From Candidatus Laterigemmans baculatus (lineage in GTDB: Bacteria > Planctomycetota > Planctomycetia > Pirellulales > Pirellulaceae), in the NCBI RefSeq assembly GCF_010367455.1, contig NZ_WRPR01000077.1, forward strand, positions 62,001-126,000: a DNA stretch of 64,000 nucleotides, written 5' to 3'. Each line of letters starts with the position of its first letter. The stretch's first letter is position 1. Positions 7,374-57,189 of this stretch are shown piece by piece. A model generated the notes under the pieces. That model saw nothing but the letters and a program-made list of their open reading frames with translations, did not search any database and was not told the origin of the DNA. The translations under genes and the position numbers were made by a program.

Positions 7374-7949
7374 TTAGCTGTGCATGCGGGGCAGGGGAGA
7401 GCCTGCGGCGATGATCGCGGTCTCTTCGCTCGAGAGCTGCTCGAGCCGCTCGCGGACTTCCGCGCGGGAGGCGAAGTGTTCGGCCAACCGCACGTAGGTC
7501 GTGTGATGTCGAGCCTCGCTCTCGAACAACCCGCCGTAGAACTCGACCAGCACCGGATCGTCGAGATGCCGGCGGAGCAAATCGAACCGCTCGCAGCTGC
7601 GGGCTTCGATCAGCCCGGCGACCAGCAAGCGGTCGACCGCGCGGTGTGGTTCTTGGGAGCGGACCAGGGCGTTGAGTTGGCGGCCGTAGGGGCCGCTCTG
7701 GAGTCGACGGAAGCGAATGCCGCGAGCGTCGAGCAGCTCGAGCACCATCTGAAAATGCTCGAGCTCCTCGAGAACGATCCGCGTCATCTCGGTGCAGAGG
7801 GCTCGATCTTCGGTGTAGGCGTTCATCAGCGACAGCGCCACGGTCGCCGCCTTCCGCTCGCAGTGAGCGTGGTCGATCAGGATTTCGTCGAGATGGGCGT
7901 CGACTTGCGCGAGCCAACGCTGGGTCGATTCGGATTGCAGGTGGAGCAC
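7374..7949 (-). CDS. miaE: tRNA-(ms2io6A)-hydroxylase, MiaE
   Basis: A diiron monooxygenase that hydroxylates the isopentenyl group of ms2i6A37 in tRNAs reading UNN codons. The 191 residues carry the expected four-helix ligand set: E31, E62 with H65 (EELEH), E116 and E145 with H148 (ESEARHHT). SGPYGRQLNALVR in the middle is typical. Length is normal for the family. It starts with ATG at 7949, divergent from ftsY, with 126 nt between the two starts. The protein is expected in the cytosol; MiaA and MiaB, which make its substrate, are not in the window. Confidence 0.92.
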   Translation of the reverse strand: MLHLQSESTQRWLAQVDAHLDEILIDHAHCERKAATVALSLMNAYTEDRALCTEMTRIVLEELEHFQMVLELLDARGIRFRRLQSGPYGRQLNALVRSQEPHRAVDRLLVAGLIEARSCERFDLLRRHLDDPVLVEFYGGLFESEARHHTTYVRLAEHFASRAEVRERLEQLSSEETAIIAAGSPLPRMHS

Positions 7950-9098: not shown

Positions 9099-9131
9099 GC
9101 GGGAAGAGAGTACTGAGTACTGAGTGTGGCT

Positions 9132-10550: not shown

Positions 10551-10673
10551 GGCGGGAACAGGAATTCTTGGGGAGGGGCTATAGTCGGAGAGACGCAGAG
10601 CTCTAGTTTAGCAGCCAATCGGCAAAATCAGGTCAGCGTTTCCCCTGGAAATTGGTTTCTCAAAGGTGATGCC

Positions 10674-11663: not shown

Positions 11664-11680
11664 GTCCTGAGTCCTGGATA

Positions 11681-12304
11681 CTACTTGGCCGCTTGGTATC
11701 GCTGGTTGACGGCGTCCCAGTCGACCACGTTCCAGAAGGCGGAGATGTAGTCGGGGCGGCGGTTTTGGTAGTTCAGGTAGTAGGCGTGCTCCCAGACGTC
11801 GAGTCCGAGGATCGGGGTCCCGCCGAGTCCGACCGTGGCTTTCCCCATCAGCGGGCTGTCCTGGTTGGCGGTGCTGCCGACGACGAGCTTGCCGCCGTCG
11901 ACGACCAGCCATGCCCAGCCGCTGCCGAACCGCGTCGCGGCGGCGTTGGCGAACTGCTCTTTGAAGCTATCGAAGCTGCCGAAGGTTTGGTTGATGGCGT
12001 CGGCCAGCGGCCCGCTCGGGCTGCCCCCTTTGCCCGGGCCCATCAGGGTCCAGAACAGCGAGTGGTTGGCGTGGCCACCGCCGTTGTTCCGCACCGCACC
12101 TCGCTTGTCCTCGGGAACCGCCGACAGATCGGAGATCAGATCCTCGATCGATTTGTTCTCGAGCGGCGTGCCGGCGATCGCGTCGTTGACCTTGGTGATG
12201 TAGGCCTGGTGGTGCTTGGTGTGATGGATTTCCATCGTCCGCGCGTCGATGTGCGGCTCGAGAGCGTCGTAAGCGTAGGGCAGTTGGGGCAGAGTGTACG
12301 CCAT
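11681..12304 (-). CDS. sodA: Superoxide dismutase, Fe/Mn family, Mn-type
   Basis: Dismutates superoxide to peroxide and oxygen. The family N-terminus [20 protein letters not shown] begins at the ATG at 12304; the frame extends 25 residues upstream but that part is not family-like. Metal ligands: H27, H81 ([11 protein letters not shown]), D169 and H173 ([11 protein letters not shown]). G77 and Q148 (TANQDSPL) are the residues that usually mark the manganese rather than the iron form. 207 aa, normal length, no signal peptide, so cytosolic. AGGAGCCCCC just upstream of the start is a possible ribosome site. Confidence 0.95.
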
Positions 12305-12419
12305 CGTGGGGGCTCCTTCGTGAAGTGGGATAGTCCTCTCCCTGGCACGATAGCGAGCCGCAAACCGGCCGAAAAGCACCTGCAGTTCGGGGAGCCGCGG
12401 TCCGAGTGGCGAAGGGGGG

Positions 12420-14726
12420 CTAGGCCTTGGCCTTGATCTGCCCCATCAAATAGGCCCGCAGGCTGGCGATGAGCTGGGCCGAGCAGTCCTTCAGCTCACC
12501 CCGCCGGCGGTCGCGGCTGCGGATCGGCCGGAGCTGGACGCGGACGATCGTCTGGGTCCCGGTGATCGAGTGGCGGGAGGCGAAATCGTGCTGCGTCTTT
12601 GCCTCTTCGAGCGTCATCCGCAGATCGAAACCGATCCGCTGGTCGGCCCGCCGCCGCCCGCCGGTTTTGAAGTCGACGCTCAACCGAGCCTCGACGTGAT
12701 CGCTGCCGACGCGGGTGATCTCGGCGCGATGGTCGGCCAAGAACCCGCGGAGTTTCTCGATCGCGATCTCGACCGGCACAGGCGAGGAGATGCGGACTTC
12801 GCTCGAGGAGTGGACCAGTCCGCGATCGAACCAGTTGAGCCAGCGGTGTTTGGAGGGGAGTTGGCCGCCGAGCGTGGAGTAGCCGCCGGAGCCGAGTTGG
12901 ACGACGCGGTTGCGGCCATGGTCCTTGGCTCGCAGCAGGGCGCGGTCGGCGCGGGAGAGGACAGTTTCGGCGGTGTCGCCGTCTTGGTATTCGGTGACTC
13001 CGAAGCTGGCGGTGATCGATTTGCCACCGAGCGCTTCGTAGGTCGTCTGCTCGACCGCCTGACGGATCGATTCGGCGCGCGCCGCAGCGGTCGCGTTGTC
13101 GCAGCCCGGGCAGACGAGCACGAACTCCTCGCCGCCGTAGCGAGCGACCAAGTCCCCCTCCCGGTTCTGGCTGCCGAGCATCTCGGCAAAGCGGATCAAC
13201 ACCTCGTCGGCCGCCGGGTGGCCGTGGACGTCGTTGACCTGCTTGAAGTGGTCGATGTCGCAGATGATCAGGCTGAAGGGGGCCGAGCCCGAGCGGGCGG
13301 CGTCGCTGCACTGTTCGAGCTTGCGATCGAATTCCGCGCGGTTGGCGATCCCCGTCAGCGGGTCGCGGGTGGCCTGCACCGACAGGTCCTGGACACGCTG
13401 TTCGAGGCAGGTTTGTCGGGAGGCATCGTGCAGGATTACGACCACGCCGCGGATTCCGGGGGTCGCTTCGAGCACCGAGCAGACCAGGGCGTGGACCGGT
13501 ACCAGTTGGCCGCTCCGGCCGATGAGGCTCAGTTGACGATTGATATGGCCGCCGCTGCTCAGCCGAGCGAGCACCGGGCAGCGGTCGCGCTGGATCGGCT
13601 CGCCCGACTCGTCGCGGAGCCCGATCATGTCGGGCTCCCAACGGTTCCCGCAGACCGCTGCGGCCGAGACGCCGGTGAGCCGCTGCATCGCCTGATTCCA
13701 GCGGCGGATCAGGCCATCGTGGTCGACGAAGATCACCCCGTCGTGCATGTTCGCCATCAGATGGTTGTAGAAGCTTTCGCTGTGGGTCCCTTCGATCGAG
13801 AGCGGCTGAGGCGATTGCCGATTGGCGCTCCAGCGGTGATCGCTCGCTTCGCTCTTGAATTGGCTCAGCCAACGATTGACCGCGCTGCTGTAGATCGCTT
13901 CGGGCTGCACCTCGAGCATCTGGGAGAAGTGGCGCGTCAGCTCCGGATCGAACTGGGTGCCGGCGTACTGCAGCAGTTCGGCGATCGCCCGCTCGCGGCT
14001 CAGCGCCGGTCGGTAGAGGCAGTCGGAGGTCATCGCGTCGAACGCGCCGACGATCGCCAGCATGCGGGCCCCGAGCGGCAACGCGGTGCCCTGCGGCAGG
14101 TCGCCACCGCGGCGGCTGGCAAACCAGGTCTGGCTGTAGCGAACGATGTCGAGCAGCTCTTGGTCGGTCGTGCAGCCGCGGAGGATTTCCGAGCCGAGCT
14201 GCGGCGCGAGGTCCATCGAGAGCTGCTCTTCGGCGGTCAACTTGCCGGGCTTTTTGAGGATCGCATCGGGAATCCCAATTTTACCAATGTCGTGCAGCAG
14301 GGCGGCGACCTCGATCCGATCGCGATCCTCATCCGAGAGCGACAGCCGCTCGGCCCAGCCGGAACATCCGAGTGCCACCCGCAAACTGTGGCTGGCGGTC
14401 GGGGCGTGCTTGCTCCGCAGGGCATAGAACAGCGCGGTGGCAGTTCCCAGCCGGACCATCGCCAAGCGGTTCTCCACCCGCGCCGATCCGCTCTCGGGCA
14501 CCAGCGCGCTGGCCGCCGGTGCGAACGCTGCGGCCAAGGGGGGAAGGGCACCGGCACCGACCAACCCCGAGATCAGCCCCGAAATCCGACCCAACGCGTC
14601 CCCGCCTCCCGCATCGGCGGTCGAGGCAAAGGCGGCCGCGGCGAGCCGAAAGGAGTCCGCCGTGACGGCCGAAGAGGGATGCAAGATGCCCGCAGGGGAA
14701 TCGGTCGGAGGGGTGGTATCGGTCAT
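12420..14726 (-). CDS. HD-GYP-like / PAS / GGDEF signalling protein
   Basis: Makes cyclic di-GMP by its GGDEF domain. I prefer the ATG at 14726 (MTDTTPPTD, about 768 aa) over the TTG 24 nt upstream. Order: Ala-rich N-terminus; HD domain (about 110-265) with [22 protein letters not shown] domain (about 325-450, [15 protein letters not shown]); GGDEF domain (about 465-620) with RYGGEEF and an inhibitory RxxD site (REGD) five residues before it; and a C-terminal 140-residue domain of unknown type. The HD domain keeps HD but the later HD-GYP motif HHExxDGxGYP reads [16 protein letters not shown], so most metal ligands are lost and phosphodiesterase activity is unlikely. No membrane segment is clear. 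Confidence 0.88.
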
Positions 14727-40558: not shown

Positions 40559-43500
40559 CTACTGACTCTCGGCTTCCTTCAGCGACGCAGTGTCTTCCTT
40601 CAACGACTCCGGAATTTCTCTTGGCCAATCGCCTCGGAGGGTGGCGCCGCGGACGCGGGCTTCGACCTTGGCGGGCTCGAAGGTGAAGCCGATTCGCCGC
40701 TGATGCGATTCGGAGTGGGCATCGTTGTAGCGGTAGATCGGGACGCCGTTGAGCTCGAGCCGCAGATGGTCCTCCTCCATCACCATCCGCAGCTTGTTCC
40801 AGGCGTTCGCTTTCAGCGGGACGGTTCCGTCGTGCAGCTGGCCATCGAGGTCTTCGAGCAGGCGATGCGGTTCGGGACCCACATCGTTCCGGCGGCCGAC
40901 CTGTCCGAGCCAGCGAAGTCGGACGCCCTCGGGCTGGAGGACCATCGCGACTTCATCGAGCACCGGATGGACCTCGCAGGCACCATGTTCGTAGTAGAAC
41001 TCGTATTCCACTTGCTCGCCCGAATGCAGCGGTCGCATGTAGTGCAGCACCGGGTGCGGAATATTCGGCGACGAGCTTTGAACTCCTTTGAGTTCCCCCT
41101 CTTTCCACGCCCAGTGGATCTCGGTGGTCCTCACCTGCGGCGGGTTCGCGACCTCGAGATCTACGGGCTCGGCGACTTCAGCCGAACTGAGCAGCGATCC
41201 TGACTGCCAGGCGGTCCAGCCTCGCAGCCGTGGATCATCGAGGAGGGGAACTTCATCGAGGACTCGCGGAGTCCCTTCGATCGTGATCGCGTCGATCGGC
41301 GAGTGGAAATGGTAGAGGGCCTGCCAACCCAGGAACGGAAACGAAGTTCCCGCGTGCGTTTCACGGTAGATCGGCTGGTCGTTGATCAAGAGTTCCCACG
41401 TGTCACCCCGCACGCGGAGCCGCATCGCGTTTGCCACGCCTTTGTTGATCACGGTCTGCTTATAGACGGTGTGTTCTCGATTACCAAAAGCGTCGATCAA
41501 GATCGTGTCGTTGAAGCCTCGCGGGGACACGACGGCACCGGAGACGACGGCGCCGACCGGTTGCCAGCCCCCGTCGAACTGCTGCCAAGTGAGGTCGAAG
41601 TCGCCCCCGAGCGGCATGCGGAGGAAGACATAATCCTGGTATTGGCCGGATATGTGGGTGAGTTGGCGGGGGCCAGCGAGCCAACGGGTCGGAGCCACTG
41701 GCGTGCTGAACGATGGGACATCGGAGGCGATCGTCCAGATCGGCATCTCGGCGACCGATACCAGGTCGGGCTTGTCCGCGACCGCGACATGCAACGTATC
41801 GTTAACAAGTGCTTGTCCGCGGCCGTACGCGCTCCGCTTGCAGTGCAGCAGAAGCTGCTCAAGCATTTCGATCGCTTGGGCTGCGGTCGCTTCGCGATGG
41901 GCCGCGCTGACCGCCACCGCCAAATGCCCGACGTCGGGAATCTCCTTGCTGCCCATCTCCGCGGGCAGACGCTTGCGAATTGCGCCGGCAATTTCTTCCA
42001 GCAACTCCCGCGGGATTTCCCGGCCGGCATGATCCAGCGCCAATGCCAAGGCAACGTCCGCATTGTCGCGGTCATTGGACTGCATCGACCGCAGTTCGTC
42101 GATCAGCGATTCGAGTTTGCCGCCCCTCTCGGCCGCGGCTAGCAACATCGGGAAAACGCCCGAAAACGGCGCCGAACGGAGCCCCACGGGCTGATCCGCC
42201 ACGCTGATTTCGGCCGTCTCCACGATCGTTGCCGGAAGCGGCGGATACTTCTTGAAGCTCAAGTCCAAGCGAAGTGGTTCTTCGTCGGATGAAGAAAGCC
42301 ACAGCCCTCGAAGAGCGCTGTAGGAAGCGGCGTCGGGCAGCGAACGAACGGCGTGGACGATCTCAGCTCGCAGCATGTCAGAGCTCGGACTGTTGTACTC
42401 GACGAAGATCTGGTCGTGTCGCTGAAGCAGCCGCATGCCGATCGGGACAGCCGCCTCCGTGGCGAAGAACTCGGGCACGACGTCGGCCAGCAGCTCTTTC
42501 TCCATCCGGTCGCCGTAACCCCGGACCGGAGCATTGCGGCGGTGGCGGGCGGCGATCAGCTGCAGCACGCCGCGGTGGGCCGCTTCGACGTCACCTTGCT
42601 GGAGATCGAACGCGATGATCTTTCGGCCGAGCTTTTCGGTCGGAAAGCCGCTGTCGCGGCCGAAGACGCGGGGCTGACCTTCGCTGGCGAGCATCTGAGG
42701 CAGCAGCTGGCGGAGCACCTCGACCGCCGCCGGGGCGAGCGGCTCGGATTCCATCGCTGGCACGGCGGCATGGCTCGCCAGCAGCGTCGTGTAGGCATCG
42801 CTTTGGGAGCCGAGTAGCTCGGCGAGCCGCTCGAGCCGCGCTGCGTCGGACGCTTGCGGTTCGCCCTCGAGAGCCAACAGCACACGGGCGACTTCGGCGG
42901 CGGCCGCCGTTTCGGGATGGTCCGCGGCACGCTGCTGGAGAAGTTCGTCGAGCTCCTGCTGCCGCTCGGCTCGCACCGCCCACGCGGCCAACTCCGCCAA
43001 TCCACTGTCGTACTGCGGAGACGCGTTGGAGTCGCTGGCGTACCGTAGGGAGCGAGGATCGTCTTGCGGATCGCGAACCAAGTAGGCGTGCAGCCCACCG
43101 CTGTCGGCCGGCACGATTGCGTCCCGCAGCGCTTCGTACGCTGCTTCGGCGGAAACCTCATGCTCGCGCCAAACCTTCGAGAGCTGGACCAGTAACGTTC
43201 CGATGCGATGCTCCACGTCGGAGATCGGATCGGGAGTTTGCGACTGGTTGTAGAAGATGCCCGTGGAGTTGCGGTTGCTGCCGAGCATCAGCTCCGACGC
43301 GACTTGTCGCAGCGGAGGTCCTTCGCCGAGCGCCGCCCCGACCGCAGCGACCGAGAGCGGAGTGTTACTTTGTTCGATTGCGAGCTCGGCTAACTCCAGC
43401 GCCCACTCGGTTCGCTCGGCTGGGGAAAGCGTTTGCGGCGATGTCGCTTCCGCATCGGGCGGAGTGAGGATCTCCGCGGCCAACTGCTCGAGCGATTCGG

Positions 43501-46500
43501 CGGCTTGTTCGCTACGACCGTGCCGCTGAGCGATTTCGTTAGAGTGCCGCAGCAGAGCGAGATGCATTCGCGCCTCCTGCGACTCGCCCACGACCCGCAG
43601 CAGTCGATCGCTGAGCCGCTGGGCTTCCGCCACCGGGGTGTCGCGGTCGAGTGCAGCGGCGATCGCCGGCCAGGTTTGGAGCGCGAAGCTCGATGCATCC
43701 TCGGCATCCTCGGGGACTTTTTCCCAGCGACTGGCGATTGCGGGAATCGTCTCGTTCAGCAGCGCCGCGTCTTCCGCGGCAGCGGCCAGGACGGCCCGCA
43801 CGACCAGCGCCCGCAGGACCTGGGGCTGCAAAGTTTCGGCGTCCGCTGCCGGCGCGTCTGTCGCGGCCTGGTCCTGGGAGTCGGCGACTGCAACTTTTTG
43901 GGCGAGTTCGCCGAGCTGGCGGCGGCCTTCTTCGGTTTTCCCGGCGGGCCCCGCCAAGCGATCCAGCATGCTCTCGACGCGCAGCTGTCCCAAGCTGCTG
44001 CCGACGATCCGGGGCTGGAGCAATTCGGCGAACCTGTCGGTGGTCGGTTCCGGGTTCTCCTCCTGTCTGGCCGAGGCGGATTCGATGCGTTCCTGAAGAG
44101 CCGCCAAGCAGTGCTCGGGCGTCAACTTGGCTTCAGCGTCGGTGCGGGTCTTCCTCAGTTGGTCGAGGTAGTACTGCGAATTTCCGTAACTCGCCGCTTC
44201 GCCGAGGAGCATCGAGTCGTCGAGGATCTGTTCGCACAGCTGGAGTGCGTCGAGCGGGTAATCGATCGCCAGCAGTCCGGCAGCGATCCCCTGCAACGAG
44301 CGGACTTTCTGCTGCGCCTGATAGCCGCTGGGGAGGCCTCGCTGATCGGGCTGCGGGGCATCGATCGCTTCCAGCAGCAGCTGCCGAGCTTCCTCGCGGC
44401 GACCCACTTTCGGCAGCGCAGTGACCAGAGCCGCTTTCGGGGTGTAGGCGAAATTGTCGCTGAACGACGCTTCCCGCTCGGCGGCGACCTCGAGCAGTCG
44501 CACGGCCTGCTCGGCGAGTTTCTCGGATTCGAGGAAGAGCACGCCGAGTTGCCAAGCGGCCATGGGCTGTAGCTCAGGTTCTTCGCCTTCGAGCAGTGGC
44601 GCGATCAGCTCGGCTGCCCGCTCCGGGCGACCGGCCGCGGCGGCCAGTCCGGCGGCCAGGGATCGCATTTCGTCCCACTCGAGATCGTCCCGGTGAGCCT
44701 GTTCGGCGAGATCGGCGAGCTCGCTGATCCGCTCATGGTTTTTGGTCTCGGCCAAGCGGGTCAGCGTGCCGTTGATCTGCCCACCGGAACCGACCGAGAT
44801 CGAGCCGTTCAGGCTGCTCCAGTCATTCAGCCTGCCCGACTGGTTTTTGGTCAGCAGCGCATCACGCAGGGTCGCGAAGATTTCGGGATCGTCGAGTGCG
44901 CTTTCGCTGGTGGCCGCGGCGCTGAGTGCGATGCCCGCCATCTGCGGGCCGGCGTCGAACATCGCGATCATCAGTCGTTTGAGCGGTTCGCGGTTCTCCT
45001 CCTCGCGCCAGCCTTCTTGGAGCAGGGTGTCGAAGTAGTGATAGGACCGCTGGTACTTGTCGAGCCCGGAGTCGAGGATTTGATTGACGAGCGCCTCGTA
45101 GCCCCCTTTGCTCTTCAGGCTCTCGCGGAAGCTGTAAAAATGATTGCTCAGCAGATCGGGCTGTTTGCGGATCGCCGCGATGAGATTCTCGATCGCTTTG
45201 TCGTGTTCGCCCGCCTGGGAGCTGCGGAGGGCCAGTTGGATCAGGGCGTCGGCATTTTGGGAGCCGGCCTCGCCAGTACCTTGCAGCACTTTGGCCGCCT
45301 TGTCGCGGTCGCCTGAGGCGATGTACAGCTCGGCGAGCTCCGAGGCGATTCGCGCCGACTTGGGGGCCGCGGCCAGTTGTTGTTCGAGCCGCGCGACGAG
45401 CGGCTCGAGTCGATCGGCCGCGGCGAGTACCTGGACCGCTTCGCGACGGAGGTACTCTTCGCTCGAGCCGGAGCCCGAAGCCCTGCCTCGCGTGCGGGTG
45501 AGGATCTGCATGGCAACTTCCGCGGCCGCTTCTCGCTTGCCCATCGTATTGAGGCCCCGCATTACTTCCTGCAGCGTCTGTGTTTGGCTGCCGGCGTGTT
45601 GCTGGATCCGCCGCACCAGGTTGTCGGCCAGATCGTTCATGCCGAGTGCGGTGAGGTGCTGGGCCAGCAAAAGCTGGGTGCTCGAATCGAGCCGCATCGC
45701 GTAGAGTCGCCGCGCCGCTTGCTGGGCTCGGGCGCGGTCGCCGAGCTGCGAGGCGAGCTGCAGCATGGCCAGCTCGCGTTCCTGGACCAGCTGGCTGTTC
45801 AGCGGCTGGATCGCTTCGACGATTTTGAGGGCGCCGAGCTTGTCGCCCGCGGCGTATCGCTGCCGGGCCAGCACGACGCGGAGCGCGTTGCAGCTGGGGT
45901 CGGCTTCGAGCGCCTCGGCGAGAAGCTCGGCGGACTCTTCGGGAGCACCGCTCCAGTGCCGCACGAAAGCGGCCGCGGCGAGCCGCACCAGTCGCCGCGT
46001 CGCCGACTCCTCTTGGCCGGCCCCGTCATCCGCTTCTTGGCGAAGCCGCCCGATGAACTCCTCTTCGAGTCCTCCCGCTTTGGAGACGCTCCAGAGCAAA
46101 TGCAGGGTCCGCAGCATCTCCTCATTCCAGACCGGAGTCGCCGGCGGGAAGTCGAGAGCGGTGTAGCGGTTGTCGAGCTTGTTGCCGACGATCGCTTGCA
46201 CATGGACGTTGCCCGACCCGGCGGAGGTCGCTGCCCGCTGCGATGGTCGTAGGTTCTCGTACATGGTGGTCACCGTGTCGATCAGCAGCTCGAGATCTTC
46301 ATTCACCAGCGGCTGGTACTCTTCTTTCTCAAGCCCTTGCTGAGCGAAGAGATTCAGGGCCGTGTGCAGGAACCGTGGATCTTCGGCCGAACCGGTCAGC
46401 ATTCGCCGAAGTCGCTGGCGATCGCCCAATCGGGCTGCGAGGAACATTTGCATCGAGCGGTGTGCCGGAGCGTACTGGGAATCGACCTTCAGACCTATGA

Positions 46501-49500
46501 TCCGGTCGGCCAAATCGATAGCCGCCTGCTCTTGTCCCGCTCGGATCAGTTGATCGATCGCCGGCCCGCTGAGCCGAGTGGCATGGAGGGGCGATTCGGC
46601 GATGATCGCTTCCATGGATTTCTTAATCGTCTCCAGCGTCGCCTCGGGGAGCGGCTCGGATTCCTTGACCGAACCGTCCGATGACCGCCGCGGTTGTAGT
46701 AGGGTCATCAGGTGGCGGGCTTTGCCTTCCACCCCCGCCCGCTCGGCCAACTGCTCGGCAACTCGCACCTGCCGTTCAAGCAGTTCGTCGTCCTGCGGCA
46801 CCGGGCCCGTCAACAACTGCAGGGCGATGTCCAGGTCCCAGAGGGCCGCTTCGCCGCGGGCTGGATCGGCCGCTTCGTCCGCTGCCTGCTGGAACGAATC
46901 GAGGAACGCGTCGGTTTGCTCCGCCTCCTGAGCGATTCCCAAGAGGACCGCGATCGCCGCGGCACGCGCGAGCGAAAAGTGGCTGAGCTGGCCGCTGAAA
47001 CCGGGGCCGCTGCCGGAGTAGTAGACGGTGTTGTTGGTTGAGGCGAGCAATGGACGGAACATGTACTGCGCGTTCATCAACCGATAGCTCGGAGGGAGCG
47101 ACGTCTGGGAGGGCGAGCTGTTGCGAGTCGAGCTCTGCGAGGGGCGCGACGCCTGGCGAGCCTTTTCGCGGGCTTCTTGGGCGGCGGTCTCGCGGCTGGG
47201 GGTCTCGCGCGGTAGCTGTAGCGCCAGCAGTCGCCGAGCCGCCTCGGCCGCCCGCTCGTCCTTCGCCGCTTCCTTGCCGTCTTCCTCGTCATCGCTCAAG
47301 CGGTAAGCGATCGCCAACCGGGCGAGTGTCTCCCAGTCGTCGGGCTGATCGGCCAGCAGACGCTGGGAGATTTTGATCGCCGTCTCCCATTCGGCCCGCT
47401 GCAGCGCTCCGTCGACCGTCGAGAGGAGTTGTTCTTCGGCGTCCTCGCCGCGGGAGAGTCGCATCCAAATCGCTTCGGCTTGCTCGATCTCACCGAGGTC
47501 GATCAGCAGTCGCGCGAGCCGCGTGTCCCCTTCGCGGCTGGGGGCGATCTCGTTCAGCGCCCGTTGGTACTCGGCCGCCGCCACGGTGTCGCTGTCGCGG
47601 GTGGCCAAGTCGACCAGCCGCTCGAGCAGCAGCGTGTCGCGGGGGCTGGCCGCGAGCAGATCGTCGAGCAATCGGCGGGCGGTGCCGGTATCGCCGGAGG
47701 CTTCCTGGGCGGCAGCGATCAGCAAATCGGCTTCCCGTCGGCCTTCGCCATCACGGCCTTCGCGACCGCTGATTTCGAGCCGCTCGATCAGCTGCTCGAA
47801 CTGTCCGCTCCGCACGTACAGCTCGGTCAGCTGGGTGACCAGGTCCCCTTTCGCGTCGAGATTCTCGGCGGCCTCGAAAGCCTGCCAGTAGAGCTCGATT
47901 GCTTCGTCGGTGCGGAATTGATCGGCGAGCGCTCGAGCCAGCGCTAGCATGGCGTCGCGGTCGTTCGGAGCGGCACGGACTCCGCGGCGCAGCGCGTCGA
48001 GTCCCTGGTCAACTTCGCCGATCCGGAAGCAGAGGTCGGCAAAGAAGCGATAGTTCTCGGGGTTCGTCGCTCCGCTGGCCAAGAGCTCGCGCCCCGCTTC
48101 GAGAGCCGCCTCCGAATCGCCAAGCCGCAGCTGCAGGTTGGCGATTTGCGTGAGGTGGTTGGAGCGAAAGCGTTGGTCGATTTCAGCCAGCCGCCGATAC
48201 GCTTCGATCGCCGCCCCGAATTGGCCGGAGCGTTCGCGGAGCTCGGCAGCGGTCGTCCACGCGGCGATCGAATCCGAAGCCACCGTCACCGCCCGGCCCG
48301 CCGCGCGGACCGCTTCGTCGAGCTCGCTGTTCGCCTGTAGCAGCCGAGCCAAACGGATCCAGGCTTCGGCGTCGTTGGGGTTGGAGCTTGTCAGTTCCCG
48401 GGCTTCGGCGATCCGCTCGGGCAATTCTCCCGCGGCTTGGTAAAGCTCGATCTGTTCGCTCAGTAATTGACCCCGCTCGTCGGGCGTCTCGGCCAGCGAC
48501 GAAGCCAGCTGCAGCTGTTCGTTGGCTTCTTCGTACCGCTGTGCCTCGCGAAGCATTTGGCCAAAGCGGAGCCGCTCGGCCAGAGTCGGATCGAGCTGGG
48601 CGGCTTCGCCCATCGTTTCGAGAGCCAGCGAATCATGGTCGAACGTGGCATAGACTTCGGCCAAGCGGACCAGGTTCTCTCGCGTGCGGCGGTCGCCGGT
48701 GGCCAGTTCCGCCCAAACCTGTCGGGCCTCCTCGCCGCGGCCGAGCCGGTGCAGGTATTCGCCGAGATACTCGCGGTACTGCGGTTCGTCGGGAGCCAGT
48801 TCGATCGCTTTGGCGTACAGTGCAAGGGCCCGCTCAGTCTGTTCGGCCGCCCGCATCAAATCGGCGGTTTGGCTGGCGGTCACTGCGTCGTCGGGGCGTC
48901 GCTCGACCAGTTTTTCCCAAACTTCGGCAGCTTGCTTTTGCCGCTCCTCGGTCGGCACTTCGCGGTCGGCCAGCAGCGTTTCGCCCCAGCGGATGATGAC
49001 GTCGGGATCGTCCGGCACCAGCTCGTGCAAGCGGGCGTACTGCGTGGCGGCTTCGGCGAATTTCTCCTCGCCGAGCAGGGCACCCACGAGCGCTTCGCGC
49101 GGTTCGCTGTCGGTTGGTGCCCGCTCGATCGCCTGCTCGAACCACTGCCGCGCCTCGGGCAGCCGGCCTTGGAGGGCGAGCGTGCGGCCGGCCCGGAGCA
49201 TCGCGTCGACATCGTTCGGATGCTTTTTGATCCAGGCCGCGTAGTACTCGCTCAGCGCGTCGTAGTCGGCGGAGTCGGTGAACGAGGCTTCGATTCGTCG
49301 GCGGACATCGCGGTACAGCCAGCTGTCGGGGTTGAGTTGTGCGAGTTGCTTCTCGAGATCACCTCGAGCCGCTTCGGCTTCTCCCAAACGCAGCTTCATC
49401 TCGGCCGCGCGGATCGCGAACTGGACTCGCTGGTACGGGTCGCGGGCCGCTGTGGCGAGATCGGTGAATCGCTGGAGCGCGGCAGCGTGGTTGCCTTCGT

Positions 49501-50200
49501 CGGCCAGAATCGCGGCGACCGCTTCGGCGACGCGGGTGTCGCCCGGAAAAGCTTCGGTCAACTGCTGCCACACCTCGGCCGCTCGCTCGTCTTGCTGCTG
49601 CCGCTGATAGAGCCGGCCCAAAGCCTTGCCGATCTCCAGCAGCTCGGCTCGCGGCGGTTGGCGGCGGAGCGCTTCTTCCATCGCTTCGGCCGCCCGGTCG
49701 GGTTCACCGAGCAGGAGGTGGGCGCGCCCCAGGTAGTACGGAGCCATGCTGTCGTCGGGCAGTTGCTCGGTGGCTCGGCGGAGCGCGGTGATCGCCTCGA
49801 GCTCTTCGCCCCGTCGCAGCTGGATCAGACCCAAGAGCAGCCAGCTATTGCCGTCGGCCTGGTCGCTCTCGGCGTCGCGGCGGAGCTGTTCGACGAACGG
49901 CTCGAGCGAACCGTTTTGGACGTGGTAGCCATAGAGGCGGTCGAGCGCCGTGCCGGTCCGCGGCCGCCGCTCGAGGAGCTGGAGAAACCGCTCGGCGGCT
50001 ACCCGTTCGCGACGCTCGGCTTCGGTCTCAGCCGGTTCCTGCGAGGCTGCGTTTTGGGCGGCCGTGTCTTGGGCGGCAGCATCTTGGGCTGGAGCCAGCG
50101 ACGGAGCGGGGATCGTGAGCGTGGTGGCCACCGAGCCGAGGGCCAGCAGCAGAGCGGTGAGGCGTTTGCCGGTACGGCTGCGGGGGATGAGCGTCGCCAT
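40559..50200 (-). CDS. Giant secreted TPR protein with DUF1583-like end, 3213 aa
   Basis: A signal peptide (about 12-38, LTALLLALGSVATTLTIP) is followed by an Ala/Gln-rich spacer and then very long TPR arrays (about 75-1000 and 1500-1900; examples SWLLLGLIQLRRGEELEAI, APYYLGRAHLLLGEPDRAAE). A Ser/Pro-rich break lies at about 1005-1045. The middle (2000-2750) is helical. The last 400 residues (about 2810-3195) are beta-rich with repeated lectin-like elements (WELLINDQPIYRETHAG; LRLELNGVPIYRYND), which I take as DUF1583-like, a domain known mainly from planctomycetes. Probably exported or periplasmic. Function unknown; a scaffold or surface role is inference. No break in frame is seen over 9.6 kb. 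Confidence 0.88.
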   Translation of the reverse strand: MATLIPRSRTGKRLTALLLALGSVATTLTIPAPSLAPAQDAAAQDTAAQNAASQEPAETEAERRERVAAERFLQLLERRPRTGTALDRLYGYHVQNGSLEPFVEQLRRDAESDQADGNSWLLLGLIQLRRGEELEAITALRRATEQLPDDSMAPYYLGRAHLLLGEPDRAAEAMEEALRRQPPRAELLEIGKALGRLYQRQQQDERAAEVWQQLTEAFPGDTRVAEAVAAILADEGNHAAALQRFTDLATAARDPYQRVQFAIRAAEMKLRLGEAEAARGDLEKQLAQLNPDSWLYRDVRRRIEASFTDSADYDALSEYYAAWIKKHPNDVDAMLRAGRTLALQGRLPEARQWFEQAIERAPTDSEPREALVGALLGEEKFAEAATQYARLHELVPDDPDVIIRWGETLLADREVPTEERQKQAAEVWEKLVERRPDDAVTASQTADLMRAAEQTERALALYAKAIELAPDEPQYREYLGEYLHRLGRGEEARQVWAELATGDRRTRENLVRLAEVYATFDHDSLALETMGEAAQLDPTLAERLRFGQMLREAQRYEEANEQLQLASSLAETPDERGQLLSEQIELYQAAGELPERIAEARELTSSNPNDAEAWIRLARLLQANSELDEAVRAAGRAVTVASDSIAAWTTAAELRERSGQFGAAIEAYRRLAEIDQRFRSNHLTQIANLQLRLGDSEAALEAGRELLASGATNPENYRFFADLCFRIGEVDQGLDALRRGVRAAPNDRDAMLALARALADQFRTDEAIELYWQAFEAAENLDAKGDLVTQLTELYVRSGQFEQLIERLEISGREGRDGEGRREADLLIAAAQEASGDTGTARRLLDDLLAASPRDTLLLERLVDLATRDSDTVAAAEYQRALNEIAPSREGDTRLARLLIDLGEIEQAEAIWMRLSRGEDAEEQLLSTVDGALQRAEWETAIKISQRLLADQPDDWETLARLAIAYRLSDDEEDGKEAAKDERAAEAARRLLALQLPRETPSRETAAQEAREKARQASRPSQSSTRNSSPSQTSLPPSYRLMNAQYMFRPLLASTNNTVYYSGSGPGFSGQLSHFSLARAAAIAVLLGIAQEAEQTDAFLDSFQQAADEAADPARGEAALWDLDIALQLLTGPVPQDDELLERQVRVAEQLAERAGVEGKARHLMTLLQPRRSSDGSVKESEPLPEATLETIKKSMEAIIAESPLHATRLSGPAIDQLIRAGQEQAAIDLADRIIGLKVDSQYAPAHRSMQMFLAARLGDRQRLRRMLTGSAEDPRFLHTALNLFAQQGLEKEEYQPLVNEDLELLIDTVTTMYENLRPSQRAATSAGSGNVHVQAIVGNKLDNRYTALDFPPATPVWNEEMLRTLHLLWSVSKAGGLEEEFIGRLRQEADDGAGQEESATRRLVRLAAAAFVRHWSGAPEESAELLAEALEADPSCNALRVVLARQRYAAGDKLGALKIVEAIQPLNSQLVQERELAMLQLASQLGDRARAQQAARRLYAMRLDSSTQLLLAQHLTALGMNDLADNLVRRIQQHAGSQTQTLQEVMRGLNTMGKREAAAEVAMQILTRTRGRASGSGSSEEYLRREAVQVLAAADRLEPLVARLEQQLAAAPKSARIASELAELYIASGDRDKAAKVLQGTGEAGSQNADALIQLALRSSQAGEHDKAIENLIAAIRKQPDLLSNHFYSFRESLKSKGGYEALVNQILDSGLDKYQRSYHYFDTLLQEGWREEENREPLKRLMIAMFDAGPQMAGIALSAAATSESALDDPEIFATLRDALLTKNQSGRLNDWSSLNGSISVGSGGQINGTLTRLAETKNHERISELADLAEQAHRDDLEWDEMRSLAAGLAAAAGRPERAAELIAPLLEGEEPELQPMAAWQLGVLFLESEKLAEQAVRLLEVAAEREASFSDNFAYTPKAALVTALPKVGRREEARQLLLEAIDAPQPDQRGLPSGYQAQQKVRSLQGIAAGLLAIDYPLDALQLCEQILDDSMLLGEAASYGNSQYYLDQLRKTRTDAEAKLTPEHCLAALQERIESASARQEENPEPTTDRFAELLQPRIVGSSLGQLRVESMLDRLAGPAGKTEEGRRQLGELAQKVAVADSQDQAATDAPAADAETLQPQVLRALVVRAVLAAAAEDAALLNETIPAIASRWEKVPEDAEDASSFALQTWPAIAAALDRDTPVAEAQRLSDRLLRVVGESQEARMHLALLRHSNEIAQRHGRSEQAAESLEQLAAEILTPPDAEATSPQTLSPAERTEWALELAELAIEQSNTPLSVAAVGAALGEGPPLRQVASELMLGSNRNSTGIFYNQSQTPDPISDVEHRIGTLLVQLSKVWREHEVSAEAAYEALRDAIVPADSGGLHAYLVRDPQDDPRSLRYASDSNASPQYDSGLAELAAWAVRAERQQELDELLQQRAADHPETAAAAEVARVLLALEGEPQASDAARLERLAELLGSQSDAYTTLLASHAAVPAMESEPLAPAAVEVLRQLLPQMLASEGQPRVFGRDSGFPTEKLGRKIIAFDLQQGDVEAAHRGVLQLIAARHRRNAPVRGYGDRMEKELLADVVPEFFATEAAVPIGMRLLQRHDQIFVEYNSPSSDMLRAEIVHAVRSLPDAASYSALRGLWLSSSDEEPLRLDLSFKKYPPLPATIVETAEISVADQPVGLRSAPFSGVFPMLLAAAERGGKLESLIDELRSMQSNDRDNADVALALALDHAGREIPRELLEEIAGAIRKRLPAEMGSKEIPDVGHLAVAVSAAHREATAAQAIEMLEQLLLHCKRSAYGRGQALVNDTLHVAVADKPDLVSVAEMPIWTIASDVPSFSTPVAPTRWLAGPRQLTHISGQYQDYVFLRMPLGGDFDLTWQQFDGGWQPVGAVVSGAVVSPRGFNDTILIDAFGNREHTVYKQTVINKGVANAMRLRVRGDTWELLINDQPIYRETHAGTSFPFLGWQALYHFHSPIDAITIEGTPRVLDEVPLLDDPRLRGWTAWQSGSLLSSAEVAEPVDLEVANPPQVRTTEIHWAWKEGELKGVQSSSPNIPHPVLHYMRPLHSGEQVEYEFYYEHGACEVHPVLDEVAMVLQPEGVRLRWLGQVGRRNDVGPEPHRLLEDLDGQLHDGTVPLKANAWNKLRMVMEEDHLRLELNGVPIYRYNDAHSESHQRRIGFTFEPAKVEARVRGATLRGDWPREIPESLKEDTASLKEAESQ

Positions 50201-50446: not shown

Positions 50447-50529
50447 TGACCATCCGGCCCTGACGCTCTGCGGTGGACATGACAACAATCCGACGGATTG
50501 CACCGCTTCCTACGAGGACGAGAACACGC

Positions 50530-51540
50530 ATGGCGATCGAGGATGACCCGCAGTTGCGGGCTGAGCTGGAGCGGTTTCGCGAGGACTTCGCGCGGCTGCG
50601 GGAGGAAGTGGCACGGGTGATCGTGGGCCAGCGGGAAATCGTCGACGGAGTGCTGATGGCGCTTGTTGCCGGCGGCCACGTATTGCTCGAAGGAGTTCCG
50701 GGGCTCGGCAAGACGCTGCTCGTGCGGACGCTGGCCTCGGTGCTCGAGGCTCGCTTTTCGCGGATCCAGTTCACTCCCGACTTGATGCCGGCGGACCTGA
50801 TCGGGACCAACGTGTTGGTCGAAGGGGAGGGGGGGCAGCGGGAGTTTCGCTTCGATCCGGGGCCGCTGTTCGCCAACGTGGTTTTGGCTGACGAGATCAA
50901 CCGCGCCACGCCCAAGACGCAGTCCGCGCTGCTCGAAGCGATGCAGGAGCACAGTGTCACGGTCGCCGGCGTCACCCACTCGCTCGATCGGCTGTTCTTT
51001 GTGCTGGCGACGCAAAACCCGCTGGAGATGGAAGGGACGTATCCGTTGCCCGAAGCGCAGCTCGATCGCTTTCTGTTGAAGTTGATCGTGCCGTATCCGA
51101 CGGCCGAAGAGATGGAGACGATCCTCGACCGCACGACCGACGTCGACTCGCCCACGGCCAGCCCGCTGCTGAAACCCGAGCGGGTGTTGGAGATGTCGCG
51201 GCTGGCGCGGCGGATCCCGGTTGCCGACGAGGTTCGGCGGTTCGCGATTCAGACCGTGATGGGAACGCATCCTGACCAGCCGCAGGCGAGTCCCATGGTG
51301 CGGCAGTTCGTGCGGTACGGAGCCAGCCCGCGAGGAGCCCAAGCGGTGCTGCTGACGGCCAAGATTCACGCCCTGCTCGACGATCGTTACCACGTCGCCC
51401 GAGACGACATTCGTGCGGTCGCCCGGAGTGCCCTGCGGCATCGAGTGCTGCTGAACTTCGAAGGCCAAGCCGAAGCGATCTCGACCGACGCGGTCGTCGA
51501 AGACGTGATGCAGCACGTCGGCGACGCGGTGCTGGCGTAA
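50530..51540 (+). CDS. MoxR family AAA+ ATPase, 336 aa
   Basis: AAA+ chaperone-like ATPase that heads a DUF58/VWA operon. I use the ATG at 50530 (MAIEDDPQLRAEL); the frame opens 57 nt earlier. Walker A LLEGVPGLGKTLLVR, Walker B VVLADEINRATPKTQSALL, sensor LFFVLATQNPLEMEGTYPLP and the family's EAQLDRFLLKL are present. C-terminal lid domain with RDDIRAVARSALRHRVLL. In other bacteria MoxR proteins mature or regulate VWA-domain partners such as those encoded downstream. Confidence 0.94.
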   Translation: MAIEDDPQLRAELERFREDFARLREEVARVIVGQREIVDGVLMALVAGGHVLLEGVPGLGKTLLVRTLASVLEARFSRIQFTPDLMPADLIGTNVLVEGEGGQREFRFDPGPLFANVVLADEINRATPKTQSALLEAMQEHSVTVAGVTHSLDRLFFVLATQNPLEMEGTYPLPEAQLDRFLLKLIVPYPTAEEMETILDRTTDVDSPTASPLLKPERVLEMSRLARRIPVADEVRRFAIQTVMGTHPDQPQASPMVRQFVRYGASPRGAQAVLLTAKIHALLDDRYHVARDDIRAVARSALRHRVLLNFEGQAEAISTDAVVEDVMQHVGDAVLA

Positions 51541-51646: not shown

Positions 51647-52540
51647 ATGCTTCTTGAGCCCCAGTTTCTGGCGCGGTTGGAGTACCTTTCGCTGCTCTCG
51701 CGGCGGATGTTTCGGGGGCAGCTATTGGCCCAGCGGCGGACGCGGCAGATGGGCGGCGGGATCGAGTTCGCCGACCACCGCGCATACTCTCCGGGTGACG
51801 ACCTGCGGTACCTCGATTGGCAGGTGTATGCCCGCCACGGCGACGTGCTGTTGCGGCGGTTTCAGGAGGAGGAGGATCTGCACGTGTACGTGCTGGTCGA
51901 TGCCTCGCCGAGCATGGCAGCCCCATCGAGCGCGAACGCAGGTCAGCCGAGCAAGTTCGATTACGCTCGCCAGATCGCCGCTGCGCTTTCCTACATCGCC
52001 CTGGCCGATTTGGATCGCGTGGCAATTCTCGCCTACGCCGAAGCGGTCCATCAGTGGATGCCGATGACCCGCGGCAAGGACCGCGTCCTCTCGGTGCTGC
52101 GGTTTCTCGAGGCGCTCGAGACTCGCGGCGGACGGACTGATCTGGAAGCGGTGGCCCGGACGCTGGTCCACCGGGCGCCGCGCCGTGGGCTGGCGATCGT
52201 GATCAGCGACTTGTTCGACCAAGAGGGATTCCGCCGCGGCGCCGATCTGCTCCGCCACCATGGCTTCGAGCCGCACTTGGTCCAAGTCCACACGGCCGAG
52301 GAAGCCGAGCCGCCGCTGCTCGGTGAGCTCGAACTCTAGGACGTCGAGACCGGAGACGTGCGGCGGGTGATCGTCACCGAGCGGCTGCGGCGCCAGTACC
52401 GCCAGCGGTTCGAGGCCTTTTTGGAGTCGATCCAAACCTACTGCCGCGGGTATGGGCTCAGCTGCACGCGGAGCACCACCGAGGTCCCCTTCGATCAACT
52501 GATACTGCGGATGATGCGGTCCGCGGGAGTAACCCAGTGA
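51647..52540 (+). pseudogene. DUF58 protein interrupted by an in-frame TAG
   Basis: Starting at the ATG 51647 (MLLEPQFLARLEYLSLLSRR), the protein has the DUF58 signature GGGIEFADHRAYSPGDDLRYLDW and a VWA-like metal site (VLVDASPSMA). Translation stops at TAG 52337-52339, after GELEL. The same frame then continues without a shift for 66 codons: DVETGDVRRVIVTERLRRQY ... EVPFDQLILRMMRSAGVTQ, ending at TGA 52538-52540, which overlaps the next gene's GTG start by four nt. I recall that DUF58 relatives have exactly this C-terminal part joined on. A single substitution (for example TTG to TAG) explains it. Truncated protein of about 230 aa, read-through, re-initiation at GTG 52358, or a sequencing error are all possible. 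Confidence 0.75.
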
Positions 52541-54552
52541 TCGGTTTCGCCGGAGTTCCAGGAAGCGGGCTTGCTGGGCCAATCGCCCAAGTCCAGCTGG
52601 CCGCCCCGCAGCTGGCCCTGTGGGGGCTGTTGGCGGTGCCGATCATCGCGCTGTTCATCCTCCGCGTGCGGCTGCGGCGAGAGCCCGTGTCGACGCTGCT
52701 GTTCTGGGATCAGTTGCTCGACGACCGCCGCCGCCGCGCGTGGTGGCAGCGGCTGCGGAGTCCTTTGTCGCTGCTGCTGCAATTACTGTTGTTGGGGTTG
52801 GTGGTCGCGGCGCTGGTCGATCCCCTGTGGGCTTGGCAAGCCGCTCAGCCACGGCGAGTGGTGTTGGTCGTCGACAATTCGGCCAGCATGAATGCGAGGC
52901 TCCCGGGCGACGCAACGGATCGCCTGGAAGAAGCTCGCGAGGCGGCCGCTTCGATCGTTCGCTCGCTGCGTGACCGCGACCGGATGGCGGTCGTGACTGC
53001 CGGCGGATTGCCGCGGGTTCACTTGGGCATGACCGACGATCTCCGCCGGCTGCGAACAGCCGTCGCAACCGTTCCCGCGACCGACGCTCCCGACCAATTG
53101 GCCGCCGCTGTGACGCTCGCTCGGCAGCTCCTGGCCAGCGAGAAATTCAGCAACGCGGAGAGCGAAATCATCGTCCTGACCGACGGCGGCAGCGGCACGA
53201 AACTCTCCACCAAAGAGTCGGCCGGCAGCCAAGAGGCCAGCAGTGAGGCTGCCAGCAGCGAAGGAGCCAGTGCGGCTCCCCCGGTGACCTTCTATGGCCT
53301 TGGGCGGGCCGCCGACAACGTGGCGATCACCGCGTTCCAGGTTCGCCGCAGCGTTGCCGATGCGCTCAGTTACCAAATCTTGGTCGAGGTTTCCAACTTC
53401 AGCCGCACCGCCGTCGAGCGACGATTGGAGATCGATTTAGAGCAGTCGCCGGTCGATGTCGTGCCGCTGCAGTTGGACGCGGGGCAGGTCTGGCGGCAGA
53501 CGCTCGACCACACTTCGATCGAGGGTGGAGAGCTGGTCGCCCGCTTGGTCGCTCCTGCCGCTACCAGTGATGTAGAACCCGCCGACTCAGAACCCGCGGA
53601 TGCGCTTTCGAGCGACGACGTGGCTCGGGCCGTGCTGCCGCGGCGGGATCCGGTTCCGGTGGTGCTCGTCACGCCAGGCAACCTGTTTCTACAAAACGTG
53701 TTGGCGGCGATTCCCGGAGTGGCGTTGACGGTCACGCTCGAGGTGCCGGCGGAGATCCCGGCTGGCGGAATTTTGGTGCTGCACCGCACGGTGCCCGACG
53801 AGCTGCCGCCGGGAGCGGTGCTGGTGATCCACCCCGAGAAGTCGAACGAGCTGTGGCAGATTGGCGACGAGCTCGCTTCGCCGCTGGTGTTTGGGCAGAC
53901 CGAGGAGACACCGCTGCTGGCCCACTTGCGACTGCAGAACGTGGCGCTCGCGGGGGCTCGCCGGCTGGAATTCTCGGTCGAGGCCGAGCCGTTGCTCGCG
54001 TCGCCGACCGAGGCACCGCTGTACGCTCGGCTGTCGCGGCCGGAGGGGGAGGTGCTGGTCTTGGACGCGGAGCTGGAGCAGGGGGATTTGCCGCTCCGGA
54101 TCGCCTTTCCGGTGATGATGAAGAACGCGGTGGAGTGGTTTCTGGGAACCAAGGGGGAGCTGCAGCCGGCACTCGCCACAGGCCAGTCGACCGTGATCCG
54201 CGCTCCGGCCCAGGGGGCGGCGTGGCTGCTTCGCTCCCCACGCGGCGAGACGTTCCCGCTCTCGACCGACTCCGACCGCTTGTCGATCGGCCCACTGCCG
54301 CAGACCGGCGTGTGGAGGGTCGAGCCGCGGGACGATCGCGAGCGGGGCGATCGCGAGCGGGTCGTCGCCTTGGCGGTGAATTTGACGAGTGCCGCCGAGA
54401 GCGATCTGCGGGAGGCTTCGGATTTCGCGCCGCCGCCGGCCGCCACGTTGGCGGGCGTGGGGGGCTATTCGATGTGGATTTATCTCGCGGCGCTGGCGGT
54501 GATCGGTTTGGTCGGCGAATGGATTTTGTACCAACGCCGCGTGGTTGCTTAA
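52537..54552 (+). CDS. BatA-like membrane protein with VWA domain, 671 aa
   Basis: N-terminal membrane region typical of the BatA family: helix about 28-44 (LALWGLLAVPIIALFILRV), the motif STLLFWDQLLDDRRRRAWW, then helix 78-97 (LLLQLLLLGLVVAALVDPLW). A VWA domain follows (about 105-270) with the MIDAS motif VVDNSASMNA. Residues 210-240 are Ser/Ala-rich. A last helix lies at about 640-660 (MWIYLAALAVIGLVGEWIL). The GTG start overlaps the DUF58 stop. It probably works with MoxR and the next VWA protein in the envelope. Confidence 0.88.
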   Translation: MIGFAGVPGSGLAGPIAQVQLAAPQLALWGLLAVPIIALFILRVRLRREPVSTLLFWDQLLDDRRRRAWWQRLRSPLSLLLQLLLLGLVVAALVDPLWAWQAAQPRRVVLVVDNSASMNARLPGDATDRLEEAREAAASIVRSLRDRDRMAVVTAGGLPRVHLGMTDDLRRLRTAVATVPATDAPDQLAAAVTLARQLLASEKFSNAESEIIVLTDGGSGTKLSTKESAGSQEASSEAASSEGASAAPPVTFYGLGRAADNVAITAFQVRRSVADALSYQILVEVSNFSRTAVERRLEIDLEQSPVDVVPLQLDAGQVWRQTLDHTSIEGGELVARLVAPAATSDVEPADSEPADALSSDDVARAVLPRRDPVPVVLVTPGNLFLQNVLAAIPGVALTVTLEVPAEIPAGGILVLHRTVPDELPPGAVLVIHPEKSNELWQIGDELASPLVFGQTEETPLLAHLRLQNVALAGARRLEFSVEAEPLLASPTEAPLYARLSRPEGEVLVLDAELEQGDLPLRIAFPVMMKNAVEWFLGTKGELQPALATGQSTVIRAPAQGAAWLLRSPRGETFPLSTDSDRLSIGPLPQTGVWRVEPRDDRERGDRERVVALAVNLTSAAESDLREASDFAPPPAATLAGVGGYSMWIYLAALAVIGLVGEWILYQRRVVA

Positions 54553-54567
54553 CGGTTTGGAGTGACG

Positions 54568-57189
54568 ATGTTCGGATCGGAATTTTCGCTCGAGCTGTGG
54601 CGACCCGGGTGGCTGGTCGGACTGCTGCTGCTCGGCGTGCTGTGGTGGTTCTACCGTTACAGCCTCAGCGACTTTTCCTGTGGGCAGCGGCGGTTGTCGC
54701 TCGCGGTCCGGTCGGCGGTGGTCGTGCTGTTGGTCTTGGCCGCGGCCGGATTGACCGCCCGGACGGTAACGCGGCAGCGAATGACGGTGGTCGCTGTCGA
54801 TCACAGTTTGAGCGTCGATGAATCGGCTGCGGAGAAAGTTCAAGAGCTCGCCGAGCAACTGCGGCGAGCGGCGGCGAGCAACCAGCGACTGGCCTTCCTG
54901 CGGTTCGCTGCCGCTCCAGAGCCAGTGGACGATTCGGAAGACGCGGTCGATCGATGGGCGGAACAGCCACTGAGCGATGAGCAGCGGAGTGGGACCGATC
55001 TGGCCGCGGCCATCCGTGTGGCCGCCGCGGCGATCGAGCCGGAGTACGTGCCGGATGTGGTGATTCTCTCCGACGGAAATCCGACCAGCGGAGATGCGGT
55101 AGCGGCAGCGGCGGCCGCAGGGGTTCCAGTCCACACGATTTCGTTGCCCGTTCGCGACGAGCCCGAGATTCAGCTCAGCGAGGTGTTGCTGCCGGCCCAG
55201 GTCCGCGAGGGAGAACCGTTCCATGTCGAGATTGTGGTGCGGTCGAACGTGGCGGGGCCCGCGACGCTCGACTTGTACCGCGACGACATCCGCGTCCAGG
55301 ACGGGGAGGCGGGACAGAGCGTGACGCTCAAGGAAGGCGAAAATCGCTTTCGCATTCGGCAAACGATCGAGGACGCGCGGCAGACCGAGTACACCGCACG
55401 CGTCGAGTCCTCCCGCGATACGCTGCTCGACAACAACGCGGCGAGCGGTTTGGTCTTTGCCGCCGGCCGCCCCTCGGTGCTGGTTTGCGACTCCTCAGGG
55501 GACGCGACCGACGCGTTCCGCTGGGCGCTCGAGGAACAAGACATCCGGGTCGAAGTGCGAGACCCCGAGGGATTGCCACGCGACTTGGCCGAGCTGCAAA
55601 AGTTCGATTGCTTGGTGCTGAGCAACGTCCCGGCCACCGCGATGAGCGTCCGCCAGATGGAGCTGATTCGCAGCTACGTGCAGGACCTCGGCGGCGGGCT
55701 GGTGATGACCGGCGGCGACCAGGCTTTCGGGCTGGGGGGCTACTACAAAACGACGCTCGAAGAGATCCTGCCGGTCCGCAGCAATTTTGAGAAGGAACGC
55801 GAAAAGCCGAGCCTGGCGATGGTCCTGGTGATCGATAAATCGGGATCGATGGGAGGCCAAAAAATCGAGCTGGCCAAAGACGCTGCCAAAGCGGCCGTCG
55901 AATTGCTGGGGCCTCGCGACGCCGTGGGGGTGATCGCCTTTGACGGTTCGAGCAACTGGGTCAGCCCGCTGCAGAACGGCTCGTCGCAAGGAGCGATCCT
56001 CGACCGGATCAGCTCGATTCAGGCTAGCGGCGGGACGAGCATCTATCCGGCGCTGGCCGACGCCCACGACGCGCTGCTCGCTGCGTCCGCGAAGCTCAAG
56101 CACGTGATTCTGCTGACCGACGGTCACAGCAGCCCAGGGGATTTTGAAGGTTTGGCGACCGATATGTCGGCGGCACGGATGACGATCAGCACCGTCGCGG
56201 TGGGGCAGGAAGCCGACGATCAGCTGCTCGAGCAGTTGGCCGAGATCGGCCGCGGCCGCTACTACCACTGCGACGACCCGGCGTCGGTCCCTCAGGTTTT
56301 TGCCAAGGAGACAGTGGAGGCCAGCAAGTCGGCGATCAATGAACTGCCGTTCCTGCCCCAACTCGTCCGCCCAACGGCTGTGCTCGGGGGACTGGAGTTG
56401 GAGGCCGCGCCGTTGCTGCTCGGCTACGTCGTGACGCGTCCCAAACCGACCAGCGAATTCATTTTGGCCAGCGAAGCGGGAGATCCGCTGCTGGTGTGGT
56501 GGCGGTATGGATTGGGGATGACCGTGGCCTTCACTTCGGACATCGGCCCCCGCTGGTCCGCTGAGTGGCTCTCGTGGCCTGAGTTTGGCACGTTCTGGGC
56601 CCAGACGATTCGCCACGCGATGCGGAAGTCGGATGCCGCCGGAGCCTTTGTCGAAGTGGTTCGCGAGGAGGACCAAGCTCGCATCGTTCTCGATTCGGTC
56701 GATCCGGTGGACAATTTCGTGAACGACGCACCCACGACGCTGACGCTGATCCGGCCAGGCCAAGTCGCCGAGCGGATGGAGATGCAGCCGACCGCACCGG
56801 GACGCTACGAGGCGAAGTTTCCCGCCGACGCTCGAGGGGCTTACCTGATGGAGATCAGCCAGGACCGCGGGGGCGAAATGATGCGGCAAAACCGTGGGCT
56901 GGTCGTGGGGTATCCCACTGAGTTGCGGCTGCAGAGCGTCGACCGCGACTTGCTGCGGCAGATCGCCGAAATTTCCGGAGGGCGGTTGGAGCCGACGCCT
57001 GCGGAGCTGACCGCCGCGGATGGACGCTCGGCTCGCCGCCGGGTCGCGCTCTGGCCGTGGCTGCTGATCGTCGCGTTGTTGCTGTTCGTCTTGGACGTCG
57101 CCCTCCGCCGAATCGATTTCGCTCGGCTGCCGCGAGTGCGAACAGAAAAGTCTTCCCCGGTGGTACCCGACCCCGTACCATCAGGGTAG
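54568..57189 (+). CDS. Membrane protein with two VWA domains, 873 aa
   Basis: I take the ATG 54568; GGAG lies 7 nt upstream and makes it better than the GTG at 54562. N-terminal helices about 15-33 and 48-67. The first VWA domain (about 75-200) has a weak MIDAS (VVAVDHSLSVDES). The middle (about 290-400) resembles glutamine-amidotransferase-like domains of this family (SVLVCDSSGDATDAFRWAL; GLVMTGGDQAFGLGGYYKT). The second VWA domain (about 410-590) has a full MIDAS (VLVIDKSGSMGG) and LTDGHSSPGDF. A C-terminal helix precedes a Pro-rich tail. The stop TAG lies in CCATCAGGGTAGG, close to the unit of the tandem array that follows. Confidence 0.88.
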   Translation: MFGSEFSLELWRPGWLVGLLLLGVLWWFYRYSLSDFSCGQRRLSLAVRSAVVVLLVLAAAGLTARTVTRQRMTVVAVDHSLSVDESAAEKVQELAEQLRRAAASNQRLAFLRFAAAPEPVDDSEDAVDRWAEQPLSDEQRSGTDLAAAIRVAAAAIEPEYVPDVVILSDGNPTSGDAVAAAAAAGVPVHTISLPVRDEPEIQLSEVLLPAQVREGEPFHVEIVVRSNVAGPATLDLYRDDIRVQDGEAGQSVTLKEGENRFRIRQTIEDARQTEYTARVESSRDTLLDNNAASGLVFAAGRPSVLVCDSSGDATDAFRWALEEQDIRVEVRDPEGLPRDLAELQKFDCLVLSNVPATAMSVRQMELIRSYVQDLGGGLVMTGGDQAFGLGGYYKTTLEEILPVRSNFEKEREKPSLAMVLVIDKSGSMGGQKIELAKDAAKAAVELLGPRDAVGVIAFDGSSNWVSPLQNGSSQGAILDRISSIQASGGTSIYPALADAHDALLAASAKLKHVILLTDGHSSPGDFEGLATDMSAARMTISTVAVGQEADDQLLEQLAEIGRGRYYHCDDPASVPQVFAKETVEASKSAINELPFLPQLVRPTAVLGGLELEAAPLLLGYVVTRPKPTSEFILASEAGDPLLVWWRYGLGMTVAFTSDIGPRWSAEWLSWPEFGTFWAQTIRHAMRKSDAAGAFVEVVREEDQARIVLDSVDPVDNFVNDAPTTLTLIRPGQVAERMEMQPTAPGRYEAKFPADARGAYLMEISQDRGGEMMRQNRGLVVGYPTELRLQSVDRDLLRQIAEISGGRLEPTPAELTAADGRSARRRVALWPWLLIVALLLFVLDVALRRIDFARLPRVRTEKSSPVVPDPVPSG

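Follow-up and report, generated by a model that had tools for sequence, protein, structure and literature searches.

A lone in-frame TAG in the DUF58 gene of a planctomycete MoxR operon: probably a very recent nonsense mutation or a consensus error

The DUF58/VWA gene of a MoxR operon carries a single in-frame TAG in the 64,000-nucleotide stretch of Candidatus Laterigemmans baculatus DNA analyzed here (the window), and we read this lone nonsense codon as a very recent mutation or strain variant of an ordinary kind, with a probability of roughly 0.55. The gene opens with an ATG at 51647, runs through 230 codons to the TAG, some three quarters into the gene, and continues in the same frame for 66 codons to a TGA at 52538–52540; without the interruption it would be an otherwise intact frame of 297 codons. 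At the position of the stop, the homologues have sense codons and run on. The first-pass annotation had described a lone TAG in a frame intact on both sides, and its coordinates proved exact. The source genome is a draft (5.76 Mb in 153 contigs, 96% complete) whose relatives are Pirellulales planctomycetes.

Table 1. Positions in the window of the operon genes and of the parts of the interrupted DUF58 frame
Feature	Position	Strand	Remarks
moxR, MoxR-type AAA+ ATPase, intact	50473..51540	+	GTG start at 50473 or ATG at 50530
DUF58/VWA gene with one TAG inside	51647..52540	+	Pfam DUF58; relatives <=69% identical, full length
Open part before the stop, 230 aa + stop	51647..52339	+	keeps MIDAS-like D85xSxS, T164, D188
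In-frame TAG, codon 231	52337..52339	+	context CTC TAG GAC
Coding-like part after the TAG, 66 codons + normal TGA	52340..52540	+	strand 238-243, helix 245-268, last core strand 272-277 and helix 282-295 in the predicted fold
BatA/VWA membrane protein gene, intact	52537..54552	+	Pfam BatA, VWA_2; GTG overlaps the DUF58 TGA
Large VWA/GATase1-like gene, same cluster, intact	54562..57189	+	Pfam VWA 98 bits, GATase1_like 58 bits
Next open frame, 489 aa	57336..58805	+	without a Pfam match; possible cluster member

By Pfam, the cluster reads moxR, DUF58, BatA/VWA and VWA/GATase1-like, with the DUF58 gene adjoining that of the MoxR ATPase. The moxR product scores 211 bits for AAA_3 and 58.5 bits for AAA_lid_2 and is 76% identical to its nearest orthologue; orthologues of the BatA/VWA gene were found in 44 of the 396 genomes searched. 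Divergent from the operon, on the minus strand of the window (40559–50200), lies an open frame of 3213 aa that looks TPR-like by eye.

We conclude that the stretch downstream of the TAG is really coding sequence, because its GC3 is high (0.86 after the TAG and 0.81 before, versus 0.62 and 0.48 for the two alternative frames), its alignment to homologues is gap-free, and the Pfam DUF58 (PF01882) score is higher for the read-on frame (138.9 bits) than for the truncated one (119.8 bits), both above the curated cut-off of 23.4 bits. The translated frame contains the peptides VETGDVRRVIVTERL and EVPFDQLILR, and its TGA overlaps the GTG of the next gene, at 52537, as GTGA. These lines of evidence agree with the earlier description of 66 DUF58-like codons closed by a TGA that overlaps the following start.

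We surveyed homologues in 396 genomes of the order, using a subfamily threshold of E <= 1e-88. The subfamily is patchy (48 matches in 46 of the 396 genomes), and all 47 matches other than the one under study align over their full length. The notion that DUF58 has a natural short form ending at GELEL, which the first-pass annotation had offered as the finding that would undo its reading, is next to impossible on these data: the truncated part alone still scores 120 bits for the Pfam family, but neither the 47 other matches nor roughly 100 further homologues end there. When 96 distinct homologues were aligned, none had a stop at the TAG column, where 14 different amino acids occur (among others, V 39, L 9, W 8, E 7, F 7, Q 6, Y 5 and I 5). 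The residue at this column is nothing special and varies freely, and the homologue codons found there include some that a single base change would turn into TAG (TAC, CAG and TGG). It is highly improbable that the gene has instead been split into two complementing fragments, with termination at the TAG and re-initiation nearby. In-frame GTG codons do follow closely (codon 7 or 10 after the TAG), but no homologue has a split form, the 66-aa fragment by itself matches nothing in Pfam, and in the AlphaFold model the cut falls at a hairpin strand within the fold.

The first-pass annotation had also listed programmed read-through, and this option lost its footing. Production of a full-length protein by programmed or tRNA-mediated read-through (a suppressor tRNA, pyrrolysine, or a TAG reassignment like that of genetic code 15) would account for a conserved, in-frame part after the TAG, and an orthologue in another family (L049/G098) is likewise interrupted by TAG. 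The two TAGs, however, differ in position and in context (CTC TAG GAC versus GAC TAG GCC), and the stop column in homologues is variable and stop-free. TAG is a common terminator in this genome, ending 204 of 616 long ORFs in 1.39 Mb, and both RF1 (L149, PET motif) and RF2 (L150, SPF motif) are intact. No CUA anticodon was present among those read from 60 tRNA matches in the 96%-complete genome, nor among the tRNAs read in the L049 genome, and PylS scored at background level in the genome, 21 bits where the cut-off is 178. We set aside reassignment or suppression of TAG on these results, and a recoding RNA element on folding, which after the TAG was no better than shuffles (z = -0.03; z = -1.58 around the TAG). 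Taken together, read-through of this kind is very unlikely.

Two other observations concern tRNA genes. A tRNA-SeC gene (anticodon TCA) lies at 7318–7416 on the minus strand of L190 (G000 contig C43:50001-70000), which suggests that some TGA codons of the genome may encode selenocysteine. On L173 (G000 contig C63), an array of 13 tRNA genes of many isotypes, several with weak scores and none with a CUA anticodon, occupies 11318–14278 on the minus strand, near a TROVE/Ro60-like gene (8900–10603, minus strand; Pfam vWA_Ro60 and TROVE). The arrangement is reminiscent of Ro60/Rsr-linked RNA-repair loci (lead: PMC7790460).

We then compared branches on a fixed tree of 97 sequences, splitting the tip branch into the parts before and after the TAG. 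The DUF58 tip branch measured 0.62 before the TAG and 0.29 after it, a ratio of 0.47 that ranked 6 of 44 (median 1.02), so there was no accelerated evolution or relaxed constraint after the TAG on this tip branch of the tree. Near-invariant residues were kept at 84 of 88 positions before the TAG and at 12 of 14 after it, the two downstream changes being T242I and L248R. Since four of the 88 upstream residues had changed as well, these substitutions give no dating of the lesion. The lesion is either very young on a long branch or absent from the organism, because the 3′ part has evolved no faster than the 5′ part. It had been proposed that selection has kept the 3′ part or that the stop is very recent; the second half of this proposal gained support, although the data would look alike if the consensus were wrong at this base.

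Such a consensus or assembly error, in which one wrong base turns a sense codon into TAG and the gene is intact in the cell, is the next most probable reading after a recent mutation. We worked from a single consensus sequence, in which a base error is possible, and from a draft of many contigs; the event is isolated, the rest of the operon is intact, and constraint after the TAG is unrelaxed. The one comparable case, L049, likewise comes from a metagenome-assembled genome (MAG). Against an error, the TAG sits in ordinary high-GC sequence with no homopolymer at the site, and the assembly is not generally error-rich. We scanned 1.39 Mb by codon usage for stops flanked on either side by uninterrupted coding signal and obtained nine candidates, among which the DUF58 TAG ranked first and alone proved to be a genuine, isolated stop in frame. 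The other eight were ordinary neighboring genes; in one case, by-eye identification gave a deoxyhypusine-synthase-like gene following a DUF1559-like gene. The scan recovered 308 of 670 planted stops (46%), and a second control, the 37 sulfatase matches of the genome, contained no internal stop. Lone stops are thus uncommon in the scanned sequence, and there are no grounds for inferring that errors or recent pseudogenes are frequent. Of the three options first put forward, a nonsense mutation and a base-call error both stand, and programmed read-through is unsupported.

The DUF58 orthologue of the Planctomycetota MAG LB_PLM_3 has an in-frame TAG of its own (L049:4295-4297; G098:C2, about 284072 + 4294), independent of the one in the window. 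It replaces the Tyr of a conserved FDYAR motif, its place and context differ from those of the TAG in the window, and the flanking moxR and batA frames are open. Three of the 48 DUF58 matches were flagged with an internal stop: the one under study (TAG), the MAG (TAG) and G306 (TAA). On inspection, the TAA in G306 was a natural C-terminal end; with that match set aside, true internal stops number 2 of 47, the gene under study included. The same-operon controls had none (0 of 53 matches for moxR and 0 of 45 for batA). Stop flags in moxR had been raised in five genomes and all proved to be natural ends: in two the stop lies where the alignment runs out, and the other three matches re-aligned without a stop. 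In another collection, of 80 homologue loci, there was one internal stop in DUF58 (L049 again), 0 of 64 in batA and 0 of 43 in VWA; a single moxR flag (57 loci) was a natural gene end, judged from its position. The excess of internal stops in DUF58 comprises two events, one of which was the reason for looking, and may be taken as a hint only. Similarly, the L049 TAG with its open neighbors points to dispensability of DUF58, which is a hint and not proof. A broader proposal, that DUF58 is a recurrent target of nonsense mutation and that loss, partial read-through or reversible switching of the MoxR partner is advantageous with the rest of the operon kept, we consider improbable.

If a single very recent nonsense codon did arise in the DUF58/VWA gene of this lineage or strain, the ribosome would stop at the TAG via the ordinary release factor RF1. 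AlphaFold modeled the read-on protein with a pLDDT of 77.8 overall and about 83–93 for residues 231–290. In this model, the stop is located at the end of a hairpin strand, and truncation removes every element assigned to the downstream part in Table 1. The 230-aa product would keep the MIDAS-like loop and residues, and it is probably inactive, because the VWA fold loses its last core β strand; lacking this strand and two helices, it would probably misfold or be degraded. Termination 197 bases before the overlapping BatA-like GTG would also loosen the coupling of translation to the remaining operon genes. We infer loss of function, from the model and by analogy with NorQ/NorD, and also polarity in the operon. 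Loss of DUF58 would seem tolerable, because the operon has a patchy distribution (46 of the 396 genomes) and the genome holds eleven other DUF58 matches.

If no more than a nonsense mutation or an error is involved, the TAG has little import beyond annotation, in that automatic pipelines will split or shorten the DUF58 gene. If the second TAG reflects a pattern, the DUF58 partner of this MoxR operon can be lost with its neighbors kept, which would bear on how poorly characterized MoxR operons work.

The operon resembles the MoxR AAA+/VWA pairs NorQ/NorD (PMC9976466) and RavA/ViaA (PMC10585395) in that an AAA+ MoxR gene adjoins a VWA gene with a MIDAS-like DxSxS; NorQ/NorD activity needs an intact MIDAS in the VWA partner (PMC9976466). 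Unlike in those pairs, the putative partner here belongs to the DUF58 type, and its sequence is truncated. An in-frame TAG within a conserved gene recalls genetic code 15, where TAG is read as glutamine (PMC9523058); in contrast, we found a single TAG and no UAG-reading tRNA, in a genome where RF1 is present and TAG is a normal terminator. Annotated pseudogenes are common in MAGs (125–527 per high-quality MAG, with most in the largest, e.g., Planctomycetes; PMC13288992), and the DUF58 gene matches recent nonsense pseudogenes of bacterial drafts and MAGs (PMC13288992) in having one in-frame stop, a frame otherwise intact and full-length homologues. Compared with typical nonsense pseudogenes, nothing is distinctive here except that the rest of the frame and the operon are still intact.
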